Shown one piece after another: positions 12,087 through 63,209 of a stretch of DNA of 64,000 bases (within the stretch, counting starts at the first letter, position 1; each line of letters opens with the position of its first letter). This DNA comes from Leisingera sp. ANG-M1 (GTDB taxonomy: Bacteria; Pseudomonadota; Alphaproteobacteria; Rhodobacterales; Rhodobacteraceae), in the NCBI RefSeq assembly GCF_000813745.1, contig NZ_JWLC01000011.1:87418-151417 (forward strand). The letters are read 5' to 3'. Below the pieces are notes generated by a model. It made no database searches. It was not told where the DNA came from and saw only the letters and a list, made by a program, of their open reading frames with translations. A program made the position numbers and the translations under genes.

Positions 12087-13222
<1,136 letters not shown>

Positions 13223-50741: not shown

Positions 50742-50974
50742 TCAGTCGCAGGCGGGCGGCTCTGAGGCGGCGGCCAGTCGGCCGCAAAGCCGCATTTTCT
50801 CACGAAACAACACAATCCGACACAAAAACGTGATATACTGGCAGCATGCCTGAGTCCCGGCAGGATTGCATTTTCGGGAAGCTGCAGGCGTTTGCCGGGC
50901 ACGCCCGCAGAAGGGACCTGCAGACCGTGCACGTTGGCATTTTCGGTGAAAGTAATGAGTGATTGGGGGATCAC

Positions 50975-53062
50975 ATGTCCAATTTGCAGATCGGGGCCGC
51001 GCGCCCCGCCGATGGCTATTCCACAAACCCTGAAAATCCTGACTGGGGCGCAACCGGCACCGGGCTGCTGAACCTGGCGCCAAGCGATCTGGGGCCCGGC
51101 GGCGGAATGTCAGGTGACGACCGCCCCGGCACGCGCGAAATTTCCAACGCCCTGTCTGTTCAGGACGGAAAAACCCACAACGCGGAATGCGCTTCGGATT
51201 TCCTGTGGATCTGGGGCCAGTTCCTGGACCACGATCTGTCGCTGACCAGCGCCGGGGAATACACCAGCGCGGACATTCCGGTCCCGGAAGGCGATCCCTA
51301 TTTCGACCCCTATGGCACCGGTGAAGAAGTCATCCCCTTTACTCGGGTCGATCAGCAGGACGGCAAATACATCAACGAGATCACCGCCTTTATCGACGCT
51401 TCGATGATTTACGGCTCGGATGCGAAGACCTTGGAAGACTTGCGTGCCGAGGGCGGCAAGCTGCAATTGACTGAAGACGGCTATCTGTACCGCTATGGCA
51501 AAGAACTGCTGACCGGCGATGTGCGGGCTGCGGAGAATGTCGCGCTCACCTCGATGCACACGATTTTCACCCGCGAGCACAACCGGCTGGTGGATGAACT
51601 GGCAGAACGGGATCCCTCGCTCACGGATGACCAGCTGTTTGAAGCCGCCCGCGCCCGGGTCGAGGCGCTCGTGCAGGCGGTGACGTACAAAGAGTTTCTG
51701 CCGTATTTGATCTGCGAAGACGCGCTGGAGGCATACCAGGGCTATGACGCGCAAGTGAACCCGGGGATCGCTATCGAGTTTTCGACGGTGGTCTTCCGGC
51801 TGGGCCACACACTACTGTCGGCAAATCTGCAGCTGGTTGCCGAAGACGGGACCAGTTACGATCCGCTGGCACTGCGGGATGCCTTTTTCAAACCCGAACT
51901 GCTTGAGAAGCCAGGGCTGATGGAGGACGTCATCCGCGGCGCTGCCAGCCAAACCGCCGAGGCGATCGACACCAAGGTTGTTGAAGATGTGCGCTCCTTC
52001 CTGTTCGGTCCGCCAGGGGCCGGCGGGTTCGATCTGGCGGCGATCAACATTCAGCGCGGCCGCGATCTGGGCGTTGCCAGCTATAACGATCTGCGCGAAG
52101 CGCTGGGGCTGGAGCGGGCTGAAACCTTTGCCGACATCACCTCCGACACCGGGCTGGCGGACAAGCTGGCAGAGGTTTACGGCGAGACCGATTTGGTCGA
52201 CGCTTGGATCGGCGGCCTGGCCGAAGACGCCTATGGCCACGGGATGCTGGGGGAAACCTTCACCACCGTGATGGTGGACCAGTTCACCCGCTTGCGCGAT
52301 GGCGATCCGTTCTGGAGCGAAGCACGGGAGGGCCTGCCTGCCGAGGACCTGCAAGAGCTCTGGGACACGAAACTATCCGAGATCATCAAGAGAAACACCG
52401 ATATCAATCTGCTTCAGAAGGATGTGTTTGCCGGAATGGACCGGATCATCGGCACTACTGCAGACGATGTTCTTACAGGCGGTGCGATGCGTGATTTCCT
52501 GCATGGGCGTGCAGGCGACGACGTGCTGAAGGGCCGCGCGGCCTGCGACGACCTGCAAGGCGGTGATGGCAACGATACCCTGGAAGGAAACCGCGGCAGC
52601 GATTGCCTCTACGGCGGTGCCGGCAATGACTACCTGAATGGCGGCATGGAGGACGACTTTATTTTTGGTGGCGCCAACCGGGACCATCTGACCGGCCGGC
52701 ACGGCAATGATGAGCTTTATGGCGGCATGGGCCAGGACTACCTCAGCGGCAACAGCGGCAATGACACTTTGGACGGCGGAGCGAACTACGACACCCTTAC
52801 GGGCGGCACCGGAGATGACGTGCTGACCGGCGGCGCAGGAAGCGATTGCTTCAAGTTCAAGTCCCGCCACCAAGGGGACGATACGATCACAGATTTCGAA
52901 CTTGGCGCGGATTGGATCAAGGTGACAGGCCCAATGCGCCACTCCCTTCAATTCGAAGACTTGGAAGGCGGTCTCAGGATCTCCGACGGCGATGACTGGT
53001 CAGTATTGCTGGAGAACATCAGTTTGGAAGATTGGGAGCTTTCCGGCGATCAGGTGCTCTGA
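50975..53062 (+). CDS. Animal-type heme peroxidase with C-terminal RTX repeats
   Basis: 695 aa. Peroxidase domain about 15-490: distal His86 in WGQFLDHDLSL, the region with FTREHNRL, proximal His278 in FRLGHTLLS, and INIQRGRDLGVASYNDLRE near 350, all hallmarks of the peroxidase-cyclooxygenase superfamily. Then about ten RTX nonapeptides (about 495-625, GGxGND-type) and a final acidic beta tail (DTITDFELGADWIK), a type I secretion signal pattern. There is no Sec signal peptide, in keeping with that route. Extracellular halide or phenol oxidation is the family chemistry. The start ATG (50975) has GGGGGA just upstream. Confidence 0.9.
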   Translation: MSNLQIGAARPADGYSTNPENPDWGATGTGLLNLAPSDLGPGGGMSGDDRPGTREISNALSVQDGKTHNAECASDFLWIWGQFLDHDLSLTSAGEYTSADIPVPEGDPYFDPYGTGEEVIPFTRVDQQDGKYINEITAFIDASMIYGSDAKTLEDLRAEGGKLQLTEDGYLYRYGKELLTGDVRAAENVALTSMHTIFTREHNRLVDELAERDPSLTDDQLFEAARARVEALVQAVTYKEFLPYLICEDALEAYQGYDAQVNPGIAIEFSTVVFRLGHTLLSANLQLVAEDGTSYDPLALRDAFFKPELLEKPGLMEDVIRGAASQTAEAIDTKVVEDVRSFLFGPPGAGGFDLAAINIQRGRDLGVASYNDLREALGLERAETFADITSDTGLADKLAEVYGETDLVDAWIGGLAEDAYGHGMLGETFTTVMVDQFTRLRDGDPFWSEAREGLPAEDLQELWDTKLSEIIKRNTDINLLQKDVFAGMDRIIGTTADDVLTGGAMRDFLHGRAGDDVLKGRAACDDLQGGDGNDTLEGNRGSDCLYGGAGNDYLNGGMEDDFIFGGANRDHLTGRHGNDELYGGMGQDYLSGNSGNDTLDGGANYDTLTGGTGDDVLTGGAGSDCFKFKSRHQGDDTITDFELGADWIKVTGPMRHSLQFEDLEGGLRISDGDDWSVLLENISLEDWELSGDQVL

Positions 53063-55513: not shown

Positions 55514-55588
55514 TGGGGTGTAGCCAAGTGGTAAGGCAGCGGTTTTTGGTACCGTGTACCGTAGGTTCGAATCCTACCACCCCAGCCA
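55514..55588 (+). tRNA. trnQ: tRNA-Gln (anticodon TTG)
   Basis: Folds into a cloverleaf: acceptor TGGGGTG pairs with CACCCCA, D stem GCC/GGC, anticodon stem GCGGT/ACCGT with loop TTTTGGT giving anticodon TTG at 55546-55548, T stem GTAGG/CCTAC with TTCGAAT, and an encoded CCA at 55586-55588. Reads CAA (and CAG by wobble). Its 3' end is the integration site of the downstream island; the 20 bases 55573-55592 recur, inverted, at 58254-58273. Confidence 0.95.
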
Positions 55589-55924
55589 TCGGCCTCCTGA
55601 CATAGCAAAACAAGAAGCTTGGATGCCTCAGAGGCTCTAAAGTGCCCCACTTTCTGCCCCAGTTGGTTTGAGCACCCCCGAAGCACCCGTTAGCTCGTTA
55701 TGCGGGTGGTGCGGGTTGCCCCTCCCGAATTACGGGAGAGGCGGGTTAGCAATTCTAGCTTCGAGATTTTGGCATGGCCTCAGGGCTATAGCAGATTGAA
55801 GTCCACCCCGTTGCCCCGTCTCTCAAGCTCATCTCTGAAGTTATCTCCCCGATCACCGATATCGAGATGCCGAGGATTCACGCAGCGCCGGTTATGACAC
55901 CGATGACGGATCACTTGGTCGCGG
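55573..55924 (+). repeat. Left arm of a 352-bp inverted repeat (starts in tRNA-Gln 3' end)
   Basis: Reverse complement of 57922-58273, same length with no gaps. By eye there are 9 mismatches, all between about 55593 and 55741; the inner 183 bases (55742-55924) are identical. The outer end is the last part of tRNA-Gln (CCTACCACCCCAGCCA); the inner part contains the 3' end of the HNH gene. Confidence 0.93.
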
Positions 55925-56163
55925 GTGGCGGCAAGCTGGTGGAGAATGCAGTAAATAAACCTGTACGCACGATCCTGATGGCCTTGAAAGCGAACTTTCC
56001 GCGGGCCGGATGTTGGCGTGACCATGCAGCCATTCTCGTCTTCTTCTGTTTCATTCAGCAATTCCTCTACTCGCTGGTGGGCTTCTTCGTAGTGATAGGC
56101 AAATATGTCGCTGTACCATTCCTGGCTACGGTCCATGGCGACGAACAGCTCGTCCTTACTCAA
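55786..56163 (-). CDS. HNH endonuclease-like protein
   Basis: 125 aa from the TTG at 56163, chosen because GGGGAGGTGG lies at the right distance; the TTG overlaps the end of the helicase gene, so the two are translationally coupled. An in-frame ATG at 56184 is possible but lacks a ribosome site. The C-terminus has the zinc-finger HNH pattern HRCHNRRCVNPRHL, as in small phage/homing endonucleases; an upstream Tyr/Trp-rich part (DRSQEWYSDIFAYHYEEA) may bind DNA. The last 139 coding bases lie in the inverted repeat and are duplicated at 57922-58060. Confidence 0.75.
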   Translation of the reverse strand: MSKDELFVAMDRSQEWYSDIFAYHYEEAHQRVEELLNETEEDENGCMVTPTSGPRKVRFQGHQDRAYRFIYCILHQLAATRDQVIRHRCHNRRCVNPRHLDIGDRGDNFRDELERRGNGVDFNLL

Positions 56164-57655
56164 TGATTTCCACCTCCCCGTCATCCGGCCAGATTGGCTC
56201 ATCGTAGCCGTTTGGCCCGCGAACCCGTCCACCAGACACCTGATAGTCCCGGTGAACCCAGATTGCTCGGCTATGATCAACACCGCCCCATTTGGCAGTC
56301 TCAGAACGCCAGCCCAGCTCGGGCATCATGTGGCGGATCCGGTTCTGGTTGGTCTTCAGCTTCTCAATGAACAGCTTGGCAATGACTTCCAACGGAACAG
56401 CAAACACACCGAGACCAGCTAGAATCTCCTCCAGGCGAACAAGCAGTACCTCACGGGATGCCCCCATGATCTGTTGCATAACCGGTGTTTCGATCAGGGA
56501 GAGGTTCAGCGAACGAGGATTGAAGTCATTCGATAGCTGATGCTCCAGCAGCCCGCGATACAGACCTGCTATGTTCTCATCACGCTCCATCCATGCATTG
56601 AACTCAGCGATGAAACTGCCGAACTCCTCAGCATCCGGGCCAGAGGCATGACCGGAGTGATCCACGTTGATAACATAGTATCTGCGCTCATCCGCCTCGA
56701 TCCAAAGCGGCAAGTGGTTGGAAGTGAACAGAAAACAGCAAGACTGTTGTACCTTCTCGACCTCCTTCCCCTTAGCTTCTGACACGGTCACTCTTTCCGT
56801 AATGTACGTCTTGAGCGTATTGCCGTGAGGGGAGTCAGGCTTGAGTTGGAGCTCCTCAGATACGATCAGCTTGCTATCCAACAGCGGCTTGTTGAACTTG
56901 CCGGTCAGCTTGGCGATGCTGTTCTGGGCAACTGAGTTTTCTTCGCCAAACAGACGGGTGGCTAGCTGGCAGAGTGTGCTTTTACCCGTTCCTTTCTGAC
57001 GCGAATACAAGAAGATAGCCCAGTTTGGCTTATCCGCTTCATTCTTCAAGCACCAAGCAAGCCAATCGATGAATACACGACGATCTACCGCATGCTGGAA
57101 GATCCGCTGAAGGAGTGCTTCAAGCATTGCCATGTTTGGCTGAGCAGAGGTCAGATTGCGATAGGCAGGCTTGCGCCAAGTGTTGATAGCGACCATGTCC
57201 CGTACAGGGAAAACCCGGTCATCATTGCCCGGTGCGCATTGGGTGGTTCCATTCCAGAGTGGAATTTGCTGGCTCACATCGTCATGGGTTTCGATCATGG
57301 CCCGCTGAAAGACATCTCTCAGAAGCTCCGAGGTCAGCTCAATCTCCGGGAACGCCCGTTTGAACTTCTGAAGAGCAAGCTTCTTCAGGTCCGCCTGGCT
57401 AAGCGGGACATTGAGGTCATCAACGTCATGGAGTTGGTTGCGGTTTCGCACGAAGCACTTTGACAGGTACTCGCACAGAGCCGCCACGTTATCAGGCTCT
57501 ACCTTTGGTGTTGCCTCCTCAACTACCTCGTTCGCACTCTCTGCTTCTTCCTTGTTCTTACCCTGGCGTCTGGTGCGCGCTTCCAGCCACTCCGCCGATA
57601 GCATTTCTGGTACGTATTCTGCGCCATGCATGATCAGTTCTGTATTTCTTATCAT
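56156..57655 (-). CDS. Phage/satellite-type primase-helicase (DUF5906-like SF3 ATPase)
   Basis: 499 aa. The central ATPase has Walker A GTGKST at residues 222-227 (SRQKGTGKSTLCQLATRLFG), a Walker B-like DSKLIVSEELQ near 258, and the sensor-type FLFTSNHLPLWI near 310, followed by DERRYYVINVD. This is the DUF5906/D5-like family that unwinds origins of phages, satellites and some plasmids. A basic and acidic N-terminal part (about 1-130) has no recognisable primase motif, so polymerising activity is not shown. Starts behind GGAGA and ends coupled to the HNH gene. Suggests independent replication of the element. Confidence 0.83.
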   Translation of the reverse strand: MIRNTELIMHGAEYVPEMLSAEWLEARTRRQGKNKEEAESANEVVEEATPKVEPDNVAALCEYLSKCFVRNRNQLHDVDDLNVPLSQADLKKLALQKFKRAFPEIELTSELLRDVFQRAMIETHDDVSQQIPLWNGTTQCAPGNDDRVFPVRDMVAINTWRKPAYRNLTSAQPNMAMLEALLQRIFQHAVDRRVFIDWLAWCLKNEADKPNWAIFLYSRQKGTGKSTLCQLATRLFGEENSVAQNSIAKLTGKFNKPLLDSKLIVSEELQLKPDSPHGNTLKTYITERVTVSEAKGKEVEKVQQSCCFLFTSNHLPLWIEADERRYYVINVDHSGHASGPDAEEFGSFIAEFNAWMERDENIAGLYRGLLEHQLSNDFNPRSLNLSLIETPVMQQIMGASREVLLVRLEEILAGLGVFAVPLEVIAKLFIEKLKTNQNRIRHMMPELGWRSETAKWGGVDHSRAIWVHRDYQVSGGRVRGPNGYDEPIWPDDGEVEIIE

Positions 57656-57921
57656 ATAGTCTCCTCACAAGCGGGAATCCGCCTATAAAACAGTGTGTTG
57701 TAGGTTTTGGTGGAGATCCGGTTCAGGTTCAGCGTTCGCGGCTGCAACAAAGCAATCGCGTGAAAGCTGGCCCCCTGAGGCCGGGTACTGATCTTAAGGC
57801 GTTCTAAATCGACAGACAGTCGCGGACTGTATCTGGTCTAGATTTTCCAGCCCATGTTAGCGCCCTAGATTTCAGTGCGCGCCGTCTCTCATACCTTCCA
57901 TAACATGTCAACGATTTGGTG
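57656..57921. other. Non-coding gap between primase-helicase and right repeat arm
   Basis: 266 bases, lower GC than the backbone, holding the promoter side of the minus-strand helicase gene. No clear binding-site pattern or RNA seen. Confidence 0.35.
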
Positions 57922-58060
57922 CCGCGACCAAGTGATCCGTCATCGGTGTCATAACCGGCGCTGCGTGAATCCTCGGCATCTCGATATCGGTGATCGGGGA
58001 GATAACTTCAGAGATGAGCTTGAGAGACGGGGCAACGGGGTGGACTTCAATCTGCTATAG
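57922..58060 (+). pseudogene. Duplicated 3' fragment of the HNH gene
   Basis: Identical over 139 bases to the 3' end of the HNH gene, in opposite orientation, ending at the same TAG. It encodes the HRCHNRRCVNPRHL motif and tail but not the N-terminal part; the open frame preceding it (from 57875) has unrelated residues. It is therefore a truncated copy carried by the right repeat arm, not likely a functional gene. Confidence 0.75.
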
Positions 58061-58273
58061 CCCTGAGGCCATGCCAAAATCTCGAAGCTAGAATTGCTAA
58101 CCCGACTCTCCCGTAATTCGGGAGGGGCAACCCGCACCACCCGCATAACGAGCTAACGGGTGCTCCGGGGGTGCTCAAACCAACTGGGGCAGAAACCGGG
58201 GCACTTTGGAGCCTCTGAGGCATCCAAGCTTCTTGTTTTGCTATGTCAGAGAACCGATGGCTGGGGTGGTAGG
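57922..58273 (-). repeat. Right arm of the 352-bp inverted repeat
   Basis: Inverted partner of 55573-55924, no indels, about 9 substitutions confined to the outer half. Its outermost 20 bases (58254-58273) are an inverted copy of the tRNA-Gln 3' end with flank. Both arms enclose about 2.0 kb with the primase-helicase and most of the HNH gene. Confidence 0.93.
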
Positions 58274-58443
58274 AAACCTTGTGTCCCGATGAACGCTATC
58301 AACTTTTTCCAACCTCTGAAGGTTATGGGGCGGATCCTGGGGCATTTCCGGTCCGAGCGGGGAGCGAGGTGGGCAGTTCCGGGGCCGCCGGAGGCAACTA
58401 GCGCCCCTCAGTCAGAGGCGCTGGCTGGGATGTTCCGCTGACT

Positions 58444-58851
58444 TCAATACTGCTCCCACCGCCAACGCCCGAAGGCGCCCGGCGAACTCAAGCGCCCACT
58501 GCGCGGATCATAGACGCAGAGACGGGTACGGTAGGTCGCATCATCTGCCTGCTTCCGCCACCCCACTTCCACCACGATGTGCTCGTTCTTACTCCAGACT
58601 CCACTCACGAAGGACGGATTGTTGCGCGGGTAACGATTGTACTCTCTTTGAATCCAGCTTCTGCACTGGCCCTTCACGTTCTCGACGGCAGCAGCTTGGA
58701 CACGTTGCGTCTCCACTTGCTGCTCCGCCCAATGACCATAACCCAAAATAGCCACAGGAACGGCAACGAGGAGGCCTAGCAGAACTTTGTTCGCTATGAG
58801 CCTGTCGAAGTAATCTCCAAGGTTTGCCAGGAAGTAAGAAAACGCCCACAT
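58444..58851 (-). CDS. Unknown single-span membrane protein of the island
   Basis: 135 aa. One hydrophobic helix (about 22-42) follows an amphipathic N-terminus; the remaining ~90 residues carry many Arg/Trp/Tyr and two Cys (QCRSW, RLCVYD). GGGAG lies eight bases before the ATG. It is transcribed opposite to the XRE gene downstream. No motif is recognised. The gap 58274-58443 before it contains nothing I can name. Confidence 0.62.
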   Translation of the reverse strand: MWAFSYFLANLGDYFDRLIANKVLLGLLVAVPVAILGYGHWAEQQVETQRVQAAAVENVKGQCRSWIQREYNRYPRNNPSFVSGVWSKNEHIVVEVGWRKQADDATYRTRLCVYDPRSGRLSSPGAFGRWRWEQY

Positions 58852-59083: not shown

Positions 59084-59320
59084 TTGAGCGTGAAGAGAAC
59101 GCCAAAAAGCCCACTCAGAGATATCGTAGCGCGGAACATGCGGCTGTTTCGGGCTGAACGCGGCTGGTCTCAGGAAAGGTTAGCTGCCGAGGCTGGGTTG
59201 AACCGCACATACCTTAGTGCAGTCGAGCGTTCAGAGCAGAATATATCAATTGATAACCTATACCGCGTTGCGGAAGGCTTAGGAATCGAAAGCTGGCGCC
59301 TTCTTAGCCCCCAGGACTAA
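59084..59320 (+). CDS. XRE-family HTH regulator, R-M controller (C protein)-like
   Basis: 78 aa from TTG 59084, or 76 aa from the GTG at 59090. Nearly the whole chain is one HTH_3 domain: LRDIVARNMRLFRAERGWSQ, then LAAEAGLNRTYLSAVERSEQ and SIDNLYRVAEGLGI. Length and sequence resemble C proteins of restriction-modification systems and small regulators of mobile elements. It probably controls the genes that follow or its own divergent neighbour. No palindromic C-box was identified in 58862-59083. Confidence 0.82.
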   Translation: MSVKRTPKSPLRDIVARNMRLFRAERGWSQERLAAEAGLNRTYLSAVERSEQNISIDNLYRVAEGLGIESWRLLSPQD

Positions 59321-59455
59321 GCAGTCCATTTAAGGCAGAACCCAACGCTCCTACACCTCTACGTCGTCAAAAACGATTGCGGTGACTACGTACCTTAGGG
59401 GCCTTTGGATACTTGTGTTTGCTTTCGGAATGCCTGATTGTACCGTCTCTCGGCG

Positions 59456-60337
59456 ATGCAACTATATGATGCAGAAATGGAAGACATCCAAATTTCCCGT
59501 CTCAATCTAACCAGCGCGGCACGCTACGCAGCTGACTTAGAAGTTTTTCTACCTAGGCAAGGAGAAACTATGTTCGCCAACTTGCCCTTTGACGTGGAGG
59601 CATCATTTGGGGAGCAAGAATTTACTGACGAGGACGGCTTTGGCTTCAAGCTCAGCTTCCGAAGGGCCTTCATTGAGGTAATTCCAGAGAACTGCGAAAT
59701 TGCTCGTGAGGGCAGATACCAGAGATCACTGCCAAGGGAAAAGTTTCAGCACTTGTTGAAAAGGGTCAGTGAAGACCATGGCTCAAGGAGAATGAACGCC
59801 TCTGGGGGCATTTCTTTGAGGTTAGCTAAGCTTTTATCAGCTGTTGGAATCGAGAGCAAACTTCACGCGGAAGTGCAACGCTCCCTTCAATCTGGTGACA
59901 TTCAATCGATTGAAAGCCAGCTAGACTTTAAGATCGTCCGATGGGTAGGAGCCGGTCGCTGGCAAATCGGTCACGAAGTCATTGGCGATCCAAACGAGCT
60001 TAGCGGTGAACTGCGCGGTGGATACTTCACCCCCCCGGGGGACGAGATCACAGAAGGTGCCCTGAATCCTCTCTGCTTTCTCAATCCAACGGGTGGCAAT
60101 GAATATACAGCAATCGTCGAGTTGCGCGCTAGAAAACGCGACTGCATCTATCAGCCCTTGGGAGAGGAGCGCAATGAAGCGCGATGGGCGAAGAAAAACA
60201 GGGTTCAAATCGAACGATTACTGACACTTAAGATGCTGGAAGAGCAAAACCGAAAGGATGGTCTTTCTCCACCAGAAGGAGAAGTGGTGCTAGCGAGAGG
60301 CGGTATCGTAGTTTGCAAATCTCAGGAAACTGAATAA
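59456..60337 (+). CDS. Unknown protein paired with a DnaB-like ATPase
   Basis: 293 aa, start at ATG 59456 or 59477; no clear ribosome site. It has a soluble mixed alpha/beta look with Trp/Arg-rich segments (RWVGAGRWQIGHEVIGDPNE near 165) and a charged C-terminal helix. GC content and codon use are lower than the chromosome. I recognise no domain. It is followed after 21 bases by the DnaB-like gene in the same direction, so the two likely form an operon. Its role can only be guessed from the partner. Confidence 0.65.
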   Translation: MQLYDAEMEDIQISRLNLTSAARYAADLEVFLPRQGETMFANLPFDVEASFGEQEFTDEDGFGFKLSFRRAFIEVIPENCEIAREGRYQRSLPREKFQHLLKRVSEDHGSRRMNASGGISLRLAKLLSAVGIESKLHAEVQRSLQSGDIQSIESQLDFKIVRWVGAGRWQIGHEVIGDPNELSGELRGGYFTPPGDEITEGALNPLCFLNPTGGNEYTAIVELRARKRDCIYQPLGEERNEARWAKKNRVQIERLLTLKMLEEQNRKDGLSPPEGEVVLARGGIVVCKSQETE

Positions 60338-60358
60338 TTTTGAAGTTTGAGCCCTTCC

Positions 60359-61648
60359 ATGACCAAAGTTAGTGAATTTTCCCCCAACCTCCCGCTCTTA
60401 AGGGCAGTTCGACGATCTAACTCTGCCATTCTATCGGATCTATGTGCTATCGCAGGCCTAGACCCCAGCAATGACTTCAAGACACTAGAGTTTTCTGATT
60501 TGGACTTTCGCGGTTCTGAGCTTGGGGACTTTATTGTGAGCTTGGACACGCCTGAATTCGCAACCGCTCAGCAGGTTACTGAGCTTGTCAACCAGCTGTC
60601 TCAAGCGGCAGAACCCCCTAATAGCCAATCGACTTCAAGCTCTCCAGTAGGTTCTTACTCTGAAGAGGTTGAGGAAACTTCTGAGGCGAGCTTTAAGCCA
60701 TTCCTACACTCGTTGGCCAGCGCAGTATCGGCAGTGGACATGGCTTACCAGCAAGGTGCTAGTGTGATTGGCCTTTCATCGGGTCTACTAGACTTGGATA
60801 AGCATCTTGGTGGCTTTCAGAAACCAGATTTAGTTGTTCTAGCCGCGGCGCCTTCAATGGGCAAAACCGCGCTGTTGACGCAAATTGCGCTCAACATTGC
60901 CAGCACGAGTTCTAATCCTTCTGCGGAAACCAACTACGAACGAGGGGGTAAAGTTGGATATTTTTCTCTTCAGTTAAGCGCTGAACAAATCGCCCAGCGC
61001 ATCTTGGCAATTGAAAGTGACGTGCCATTCGATCGTGTTCAGCGTGGTGATATGACTGAAGCAGAGTTTAGACGGTACGTTCAAGCGGCAAAAACTTTGG
61101 AGGCGATCCCTCTCTTTATTGATGACACCTTCGGAGATGTGGAGGTAGTGGCCACAAGAGCCCAGAAGCTCAAGAAGGACGTCGGCCTGGATGTTTTGAT
61201 GATAGATATGGTTGATGACATAACCGTGAACCAGTCAAGCAACTCATCGTATCCAGCGAAACTTGAAAGCGTCTTGAGGGACCTTAAGCAACTCGCCAGA
61301 GACTTGAATATTTGCGTTCTAGTGACTGCGGATATCGGAGACGCAGTACCTAAGAGAGGCAAGAAGCGCCCGAATTTAACTGATCAAGGGAGAATTGGCG
61401 CAATCAATCGGGCTGCTGATGTTGTACTTTTTTTGTATCGCGAAGAGTTTTATCTCGAGCAGCAGCGGCCCGACGACTTTGACTTAGCAGCCGTTGAACA
61501 GTGGAAATCTCACATGGAACGTGCTCATGGACGAGCTGAGATAACAGTTGCAAAGCAGCGAAATGGGCCGATCGGCTTCGTTGAGCTTAGCTTTGAACAA
61601 AGGCTGACAAAGTTCTCCAACATGGCCAAACCTTGGGACACCTATTAA
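60359..61648 (+). CDS. DnaB/RecA-like ATPase with unusual N-terminal region
   Basis: 429 aa from ATG 60359. The C-terminal ~300 residues form a DnaB-type RecA core: Walker A APSMGKT (Lys at residue 169), Walker B LDVLMIDMVDD near 280, the SVLRDLKQLARDLNICVLV segment near 310, and the end pattern KQRNGPIGFVELSFE near 400. The N-terminal domain of replicative DnaB is absent; the first ~140 residues contain GLDPSNDFKTLEFSDLDFRG, a piece I associate with N-terminal adaptors of some bacterial NTPase-effector proteins, then an acidic linker. It is not a normal replicative helicase. A terminator follows. Confidence 0.78.
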   Translation: MTKVSEFSPNLPLLRAVRRSNSAILSDLCAIAGLDPSNDFKTLEFSDLDFRGSELGDFIVSLDTPEFATAQQVTELVNQLSQAAEPPNSQSTSSSPVGSYSEEVEETSEASFKPFLHSLASAVSAVDMAYQQGASVIGLSSGLLDLDKHLGGFQKPDLVVLAAAPSMGKTALLTQIALNIASTSSNPSAETNYERGGKVGYFSLQLSAEQIAQRILAIESDVPFDRVQRGDMTEAEFRRYVQAAKTLEAIPLFIDDTFGDVEVVATRAQKLKKDVGLDVLMIDMVDDITVNQSSNSSYPAKLESVLRDLKQLARDLNICVLVTADIGDAVPKRGKKRPNLTDQGRIGAINRAADVVLFLYREEFYLEQQRPDDFDLAAVEQWKSHMERAHGRAEITVAKQRNGPIGFVELSFEQRLTKFSNMAKPWDTY

Positions 61649-61735: not shown

Positions 61736-61911
61736 TATGGTATCTTACGGGTCAGCACGTACTCCGCCAGCCAGCGCCAGTAGTCTTCAGCGCCAGCGAA
61801 GCCCTGAGACCGAGCTGCCAGATCTTCAGCAGCCCTACGAGAAAGGCCGCCATCGTATTCAGCGATAGCGGCCCTCTCTTCGAATGCGTCTATGTCAGGG
61901 ATCTGGTTCAT
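61735..61911 (-). CDS. 58-aa mobile-element protein
   Basis: 58 aa. The integrase stop and this start overlap as ATGA, so it is translated with the integrase. The pattern FEERAAIAEYDGGLSRRAAE is a recurring motif of small proteins and protein tails on alphaproteobacterial phages and islands. Acidic, helical, no membrane segment. Function unknown. Its stop lies in the terminator hairpin. Confidence 0.7.
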   Translation of the reverse strand: MNQIPDIDAFEERAAIAEYDGGLSRRAAEDLAARSQGFAGAEDYWRWLAEYVLTRKIP

Positions 61912-63209
61912 GACCCCGGTAACCTGATCTGGTCAACGATCGAGCGTTTCTGCTCATCGCTTATGCCTGCGGAGTAGATGCCGTAAGTCAGGCCATTCTC
62001 AGAACGAGCCGACTGGTGCCCGACGAGGCTTGCCGTGAAGTGCTCAGGCACGCCGGTGCGCTCGCACTGAGTCACGAACCACTTCCTAGTAGAGTGAAAC
62101 ACCAGCCCTGGACGTTCTAGCCGCAACCGTCGACGAAGTGCCGCAAACCCCTTAGTTACATGGTTCACCGTTAGCTTCGGGAACAGTGGGCCAGCCGAGG
62201 GCAGCGCACGGAATACCTCGTCAAGTCGAGGGTGAACCGGCACGAGCCGCTCAGCAGCATCAGTCTTCAGCAATCGCAGCTGGTTAGGCCTGACATGTGC
62301 GAAACATCCCAGGTTCTCCTTCGCCACGAGGTCTTCCCGCAGCAATCCAACTGCTTCCCCGGCGCGCATTCCCGATAGCAAGCACGTCAGCAGCACGGGA
62401 TGCAGATCGTCCTGCGCCGCCAGCAGCCTTGAGACCTCCTGATCAGTCGGCACCGCATACGGCTTGGGCCGGACTTTCTGATCGAACAGAACCGTCTTGA
62501 AGGGATTAGCCTCCAGATGCCCCTCATAGACACACCAGTCGAGCCAGTGATTGACCTGAGACCAGATGCGCCGTTGAGTACGAACCGTGATCCTGGCCGT
62601 CCCGCCCTCAGAAAAGGCAACCAGCCGCTCAAGGCTAAGCCCCCTCGTCCTCTCAGACTTACCGATCAGAGGCGAAAGCCGGGCAACCAATCCCAGGAAC
62701 TCCCGACCATCGGCACGGCTCAGGCTGCAGAGTGACCGGTCGCCATACTTGGAGGCAAACAAGCCCACCGAGTACCGCACCGACTTGAACCCACCGGGCC
62801 GTAACTCGTTGCTTCTACGGTTAAGGTATACTCTGCTAGTCTCCTGAACTGAGATTTTCTGAGGCACCACAACACGCCGGAATTCCGGTGCAGCAGTGAC
62901 TCCAGAGTGTTCCAGAGTGGCCCGTAGGCGATCGAGAGCCCCTTCTAGGTTCCCCTGCCATGAAGGGGTGGAACGGGTGCCCTCTGACTCACTCAGCACC
63001 ACTTCGGCTGCCGCCCGAACTTCAGCCACCTGCACTTCGTAGCGGGCGTTGATCTCAGCGGCACGGGTCCGAGCAGTGGTAGCATCACGGGTCTTCAGAG
63101 ATTGCTTCAGGGCCTGCTGGCCCAATGCAACCGCCACGTCCTTCGGATAGTTGCGCCGATAGAGCCACGTATGGCCCTTCAAGTACGCATACTTGATCTG
63201 AGCAGACAT
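61908..63209 (-). CDS. Tyrosine recombinase (integrase) of the island
   Basis: 433 aa. An N-terminal SAM-like/arm-binding region is followed by the catalytic domain: Arg in LLSGMRAGEAVGLLREDL, the HxxR box HSTR at 372-375, His398 in LVGHQS, and Tyr409 or 412 in LTYGIYS as nucleophile. All four catalytic residues appear present, so it should be active. AAAGGAGGAGACGC precedes the ATG. It should recombine at the tRNA-Gln 3' end. Unusual for islands, it lies about 6-7 kb from the tRNA, not next to it. Confidence 0.9.
   Translation of the reverse strand: MSAQIKYAYLKGHTWLYRRNYPKDVAVALGQQALKQSLKTRDATTARTRAAEINARYEVQVAEVRAAAEVVLSESEGTRSTPSWQGNLEGALDRLRATLEHSGVTAAPEFRRVVVPQKISVQETSRVYLNRRSNELRPGGFKSVRYSVGLFASKYGDRSLCSLSRADGREFLGLVARLSPLIGKSERTRGLSLERLVAFSEGGTARITVRTQRRIWSQVNHWLDWCVYEGHLEANPFKTVLFDQKVRPKPYAVPTDQEVSRLLAAQDDLHPVLLTCLLSGMRAGEAVGLLREDLVAKENLGCFAHVRPNQLRLLKTDAAERLVPVHPRLDEVFRALPSAGPLFPKLTVNHVTKGFAALRRRLRLERPGLVFHSTRKWFVTQCERTGVPEHFTASLVGHQSARSENGLTYGIYSAGISDEQKRSIVDQIRLPGS

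Follow-up and report, generated by a model that had tools for sequence, protein, structure and literature searches.

An inverted, attP-like inner site in a tRNA-Gln integrative element of Leisingera sp. ANG-M1

A primase-helicase and HNH endonuclease module, enclosed by a long inverted repeat at a tRNA-Gln gene of Leisingera sp. ANG-M1, is, from the arrangement of its att cores, one half of an integrative element of about 11 kb at this tRNA gene, whose right end lies beyond the window (the whole stretch of 64,000 nucleotides that was analysed). As its sequence shows us at the level of cores and repeats, an inner attP-like site in inverted orientation divides the element into a replication half (E1) and a half carrying integrase, regulator and cargo (E2). 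We consider it probable that this is a single element with an inner inverted attP, that its circle would carry two inverted attP sites, and that its halves have flipped and its arms have been homogenised; amplification is the benefit that we would propose for it.

The inverted repeat at tRNA-Gln and the element around it

The segments 55573-55924 and 57922-58273 form an ungapped inverted repeat of 352 bp per arm with 97% identity, which is far beyond chance, and the outer ends of the arms include the final 16 bases of tRNA-Gln. All nine mismatches (55593-55596, 55638, 55649, 55650, 55681 and 55741) fall in the outer half, and the innermost 183 bases of both arms contain none. The 3' end of the HNH gene lies inside the left arm. 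The features of this half are the following:

55514-55588, + strand: tRNA-Gln (TTG), integration target (ARAGORN; Rfam RF00005)
55573-55588, + strand: att core, the tRNA 3' end; the 24 bases 55573-55596 are repeated directly at contig 3 153955-153978
55573-55924, + strand: outer arm, read as the attL P' arm plus the HNH 3' end (self-comparison)
55643-55660, + strand: putative P' arm-type repeat pair TGCCCC-N6-TGCCCC (repeat scoring, positions read from the sequence)
55786-56283, - strand: HNH endonuclease gene (Pfam below cut-off; PHROG endonuclease, 1.7e-13; start codon not fixed)
56156-57655, - strand: DUF5906 primase-helicase gene, the replication module of E1 (Pfam and PHROG)
57922-58273, - strand: inner arm, read as the P' arm of the inner attP (self-comparison)
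58186-58203, - strand: putative P' arm-type repeats of the inner attP, mirror of 55643-55660
58258-58273, - strand: inner att core, inverted

The original prediction had described this repeat, and self-comparison returned exactly its arms, equal in length and without gaps (352 bp, nine mismatches); on re-measurement the mismatches were likewise confined to the outer half with 183 identical inner bases, and the last 16 bases of tRNA-Gln were present at both outer ends, which had been equated with the tRNA 3' end. The primase-helicase and HNH genes that it placed inside the repeat agree with the Pfam and PHROG profile matches, and its two opposed att-like sites with the inverted core order and the arm-type repeats. 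It also held that this was no usual transposon, and no transposase was found among the element genes of the window examined for a DDE transposon. While the repeat is real, a third core and a second inverted repeat had gone unseen. The primase-helicase itself matches DUF5906 above the Pfam cut-off, a VapE-like family just below it and a PHROG DNA primase (1e-24). Elsewhere in the window, a 699-aa ORF at 50963-53062 appears by eye to be haem-peroxidase-like, with RTX-like repeats.

The genome assembly consists of 91 contigs. The third copy of the core, in the direction of the tRNA, is located beyond the window at contig 3 153955-153978, 8.3 kb to the right of the inner core, so that the core order in the element is tRNA→, inner←, distal→. 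As in a tRNA-targeted island, the tRNA 3' end is directly repeated at both ends of the element (24-base core, 55573 and contig 3 153955). E1 measures 2.7 kb, and E2, between the inner inverted core and the distal core, 8.26 kb. The integrase half is also flanked by an inverted repeat: the terminal inverted repeats of E2 are 233 bp long and 99.6% alike, and the repeat measured between L004:4162-4424 and 12223-12484 covers 263 bp at 98.5%. Beyond the window, to the right of the distal core (L004:12456-12997), an older related element has left P' repeats and a decayed HNH 3' end; islands have therefore been stacked at tRNA-Gln. The part of E2 within the window comprises:

58274-58506, no strand assigned: left terminal inverted repeat of E2, read as the P arm of the inner attP (length 233 bp; identity with the partner beyond the window 99.6%)
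58327-58344, - strand: putative P arm-type repeats of the inner attP, TGCCCC-N6-CGCCCC (repeat scoring, positions read from the sequence)
58444-58851, - strand: 135-aa ORF (no Pfam match; one marginal PHROG match, E 0.027)
59084-59320, + strand: HTH_3 regulator (profile match)
59438-60337, + strand: 299-aa protein (no family match)
60347-61648, + strand: DnaB-like helicase C-domain protein (profile match)
61908-63209, - strand: tyrosine recombinase (DUF6538 above cut-off; PHROG integrase, 2.7e-33)

The integrase matches phage-integrase families in Pfam and PHROG, with Phage_integrase (8.7e-5) below the Pfam cut-off. Residues R282, H372, R375, H398, Y409 and Y412, which we take to be those of the catalytic motif, are invariant in nine sequences, and the element thus possesses an integrase gene with intact catalytic motifs, as a tRNA-targeted island does. 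Beyond the window, E2 encodes a 700-aa protein with sub-threshold Mrr/NERD matches. The genes adjoining the integrase differ among elements: they include an AbiP2 defence reverse transcriptase (L069:13371-14918, E 6.3e-186) and, in Leisingera sp. JC1, an AriA/AriAB-like ATPase (1e-24); neither of these two elements yielded a distal end of E2. The HTH regulator (59084-59320) shares 92-97% identity with its counterparts in further Leisingera contigs and in one more genome of the family, whereas the adjoining integrase is 66-75% identical, and this contrast may reflect either a mosaic or a strongly conserved regulator. In L080, E2 is 4.3 kb long and gave no integrase match, and one of its ORFs looks by eye like an IS-type transposase.

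Recurrence of the layout in related genomes

Among 394 surveyed genomes of the family, 19 had a match to the integrase (1e-60) and 9 to the helicase (1e-40). A second collection comprised 78 loci, with cores in both orientations in 32, in one orientation in 5, a single core in 15 and none in 26, the last two groups containing many short contigs. Out of the 32 loci with both orientations, 18 were kept, L122 was omitted as a tandem of unclear order, and 13 lacked tRNA-Gln on their contig; L153, in which no inner core was found, was excluded too. The study set, defined by a tRNA core and an inverted inner core on one contig, amounts to 22 loci: the window, these 18 and three from further genomes. 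The core order tRNA→/inner←/distal→ recurs, and the layout was present in the 22 loci, from related genera, several of them on contigs of 0.9-4.4 Mb. Same-genus relatives with the element include Leisingera aquaemixtae and Leisingera sp. JC1. Comparing the locus in relatives, a check proposed in the original prediction, recovered the layout in 22 loci in total.

Arm length varied between 122 and 555 bp across the 22 loci. The two arms were at least 97% identical in 18 pairs and 84-93% in the remaining four, and eight pairs were identical over their full length. For 43 of 44 arms the best bit score was obtained with the own partner, while arms from different loci were 70-75% identical over long matches, matches of 20-90 bases running higher in some cases. 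Of the 18 loci that have a distal core, all but L135 yielded terminal repeats of E2 (17 loci); these were 72-100% alike, and no more than 72-84% in L099, L109 and L154. These comparisons suggest that the arms are kept alike within each locus by exchange or gene conversion, the latter having been among the explanations first offered.

Counting enriched 7-mers around the cores, we picked out TGCCCC-type repeats; in many loci their distance from the core is about +69/+81 and -71/-59. They were scored as pairs, with a background of 1.0% per 110 bp. At the tRNA site, pairs were found on the P' side in 20 of 22 loci and on the P side in none of the 22. At the inner site the P side had them in 18, the P' side in 19 and both sides in 17 of 22, so that five loci lack one or both pairs there; at the distal site the counts were 15 of 18 (P) and 6 of 18 (P'). 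In L149 and L150, two relatives with direct cores only, the att sites are flanked by these repeats as well, and in L144, another direct-only relative, they occur on the P side only. Presumably, the TGCCCC pairs are arm-type sites of the integrase. With such pairs on both sides, the inner site has the appearance of a complete attP, and by sequence the 352-bp arms correspond to the P' arms of attL and of this inner attP, the 233-bp repeats of E2 to the matching P arms.

By homology, 20 of the 22 loci encode a replication-type protein in E1, either a primase-helicase (type A, 11 loci) or another protein (type B, 9 loci). Type A proteins match DUF5906, phage primase profiles and a solved primase. 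Type B matches phrog_4756, to which no function is assigned, and three type B proteins had no Pfam match; one structural model (pLDDT 81) retrieves family-A DNA polymerases with a probability of 1.00, a best E of 1.2e-4 and a TM-score of about 0.3, a lead, not proof, that type B may be family-A-polymerase-like. E1 of the remaining two loci, L099 and L137, carries neither gene: the E1 gene of L099 encodes a Guanylate_cyc-domain protein, and L137 has a 637-aa ORF that is cyclase-like by eye. The E1 of L112 is 7.3 kb long, more than twice the usual size; it has a type B gene at one of its ends and, at the opposite end, a partial copy of 143 aa.

The integrases of elements with the inverted attP form one clade of 29 rows (support 100/100), 28 of which carry the layout, across genera. 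L111, within this clade, has direct cores only, so the second attP can be lost, and probably was lost in L111. Five rows, including direct-only Paracoccus and Tabrizicola elements, group beside the clade with weak support (81/55) under a midpoint root. In the single-attP relatives L149 and L150, integrase, helicase and HNH genes lie between direct cores; in L149 the integrase is followed by helicase and HNH, in L144 by a type B gene, and both point at the tRNA. In the simplest history that would fit, attP was duplicated in inverted orientation between the integrase and the replication module, with flips coming later.

Both halves were found in both orientations. The integrase of E2 points toward the tRNA in 14 of 20 scored loci and away from it in six; not scored were L080, for want of an integrase, and L079, whose 199-residue match (48%) points away and which has no distal core. 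On the integrase tree, which contains 18 of the 20 scored loci (L137 and L154, with matches in two pieces, are absent), at least five changes of E2 orientation are required. The window, with E2 toward the tRNA, is sister to Sedimentitalea nanhaiensis, with E2 away from it (support 97/96). Type A genes of E1 point toward the tRNA in eight loci and away in three, type B genes in two and seven, respectively, with at least three changes in type A and at least two in type B; L099 and L137, having no type A or B gene, were not scored. Combined by hand for the 18 scorable loci, the four combinations of E1 and E2 occurred 6, 6, 2 and 4 times, that is, the halves point the same way in 10 and opposite ways in 8 of 18 loci, counted across species and not in one culture. 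Since integration via either attP would turn both halves, the four combinations would reduce to two circle isomers. The trees show scattered orientations rather than fast change, and modules may have been swapped between elements.

Both orientations across related loci also speak for the flippable cassette first suggested, except that the module is not free-standing and forms half of a larger element. We infer that E1 and E2 flip by recombination between the inverted sites. In L099 (Ruegeria lacuscaerulensis HKCCC1264) one contig holds two inverted copies of E1, 100% identical over 2137 bp, the second reaching the contig end. The arm sequence of these copies switches 77-155 bp from the core, and because this switch is inside the arm, homologous recombination or conversion fits it better than an exchange by the integrase at the core only.

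A possible mechanism and its rivals

Given the geometry of the sites, excision by attL x attR recombination would yield a circle with two inverted attP sites inside an inverted repeat of about 585 bp (352 + 233). Recombination at these inverted sites would flip E1 and E2, and exchange or conversion would keep the arms alike; candidate enzymes for the flip are the element integrase, acting at the cores, and homologous recombination, acting in the arms. With lambda-type integrases, attP x attP recombination is poor. A flip during replication of the circle could set up a double rolling circle and thereby amplify the element, as FLP/FRT does in the 2-micron plasmid, and by this analogy amplification is the function that we prefer. 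A passage of PMC3147054 links double rolling circles to frequent recombination of inverted repeats, which would also account for the homogenised arms. The stronger proposal, a bacterial counterpart of the 2-micron plasmid in which two inverted attP sites and the element's own integrase form a flip-driven double-rolling-circle amplifier that integrates into a tRNA gene, is tentative, and we hold it to be possible rather than probable.

Somewhat less credible to us is that the inverted attP is a by-product with no selected role, its arms being flipped and homogenised by RecA-type recombination and the element persisting because it is nearly harmless. The exchange inside the arm of L099 would fit this, as would the patchy mismatches, arm lengths as different as 122 and 555 bp and the apparent loss in L111. 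Against it, a single well-supported integrase clade keeps the layout across genera (28 of 29 rows), and the inner site retains both repeat pairs in 17 of 22 loci. A phase switch, in which flipping E1 would place the replication genes with (sense) or against (antisense) transcription that runs on from the tRNA promoter, could draw on the even split of the E1 genes, 10 of 20 scored loci reading away from the tRNA (sense) and 10 toward it. We judge it unlikely, since E2 is likewise found both ways and E1 orientation partly tracks the module type (away in 3 of 11 type A and 7 of 9 type B loci).

The remaining two rivals concern how the locus arose. Back-to-back insertion of two unrelated islands, or a fold-back event between island ends as entertained in the original prediction, would gain from the fact that tandem insertion does occur here, as seen from the P' repeats and the decayed HNH end that come after the distal core. 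However, E1 and E2 are complementary: in L149 and L150, direct cores enclose an integrase together with helicase and HNH genes. The layout is, moreover, shared by 22 loci. Such an origin is very improbable, and it was set aside on account of these single-attP relatives, in which the complementary halves sit together. As for an assembly chimera, several contigs end at or near the repeats, which are hard for short-read assemblers. The mismatches had already been held to argue against an artefact, and rightly so: the arms are mismatched and the layout is present in 21 other loci, several of them within contigs of 0.9-4.4 Mb, so we regard a chimera as having next to no likelihood.

Known systems and significance

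The yeast 2-micron plasmid has 599-bp repeats with FRT sites, exists as two isomers and can start a double rolling circle, according to a section of PMC3147054. The likeness lies in a circle with two inverted repeats that contain the recombinase target (599 bp there, about 585 bp predicted here), a self-encoded recombinase and isomers of two halves, as far as that section of PMC3147054 describes them. The Leisingera layout likewise places the recombinase gene and a replication gene in different halves, which two site-bearing inverted repeats would separate in the circle predicted from the integrated form. It differs in being bacterial, in its attP-like sites with arm-type repeats and in its tRNA integration, and amplification is proposed here by analogy. 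Herpes simplex virus 1, too, is portrayed in part of PMC3147054 as having two unique segments flanked by inverted repeats and four isomers; here the combinations are spread across integrated bacterial elements, and no shared genes are claimed.

With tRNA-targeted islands, including the direct-only ones of Tabrizicola and Paracoccus, the element shares the core at the tRNA 3' end, terminal direct repeats and an integrase with an adjoining replication gene, but the Tabrizicola and Paracoccus relatives have a single att orientation and no inverted repeat. Shufflons and the Gin/Cin cassettes switch surface or tail proteins by means of inverted recombination sites around a coding segment. This arrangement is found here as well, except that it encloses a replication module and that its site also serves for integration. 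The integrase of Thermococcus pTN3 is another tyrosine integrase of a mobile element tied to inversions, with identical segments down to 104 bp in the portion of PMC8371274 consulted; it inverts the host chromosome, whereas in our case the element's own halves are inverted between duplicated att sites.

Among the matches listed for the module in phage DNA (20 of 71 records) and plasmid DNA (20 of 79), only the tRNA end of the query was involved. The integrase had no match among 50,697 phage records at 1e-30, no confirmed match in IMG/VR, and one among 72,556 plasmid records at 1e-60 (Paracoccus, 55%). With regard to phage satellites (PICI/P4), the element has a phage-type primase-helicase, and its integrase gave no match in the phage records at 1e-30.

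Integrative elements are usually thought to have one attP per circle. In the titles and abstract starts of the open-licence PMC literature we found no description of an integrative element with an inverted double attP, and within this scope the layout appears to be an undescribed one for a tRNA-integrating element. It would also account for the several short-read contigs that break off at these repeats. Elements that combine a pair of inverted, seemingly complete attP sites with halves lying either way and replication genes between the sites would make Futcher-type amplification testable in cultured bacteria.
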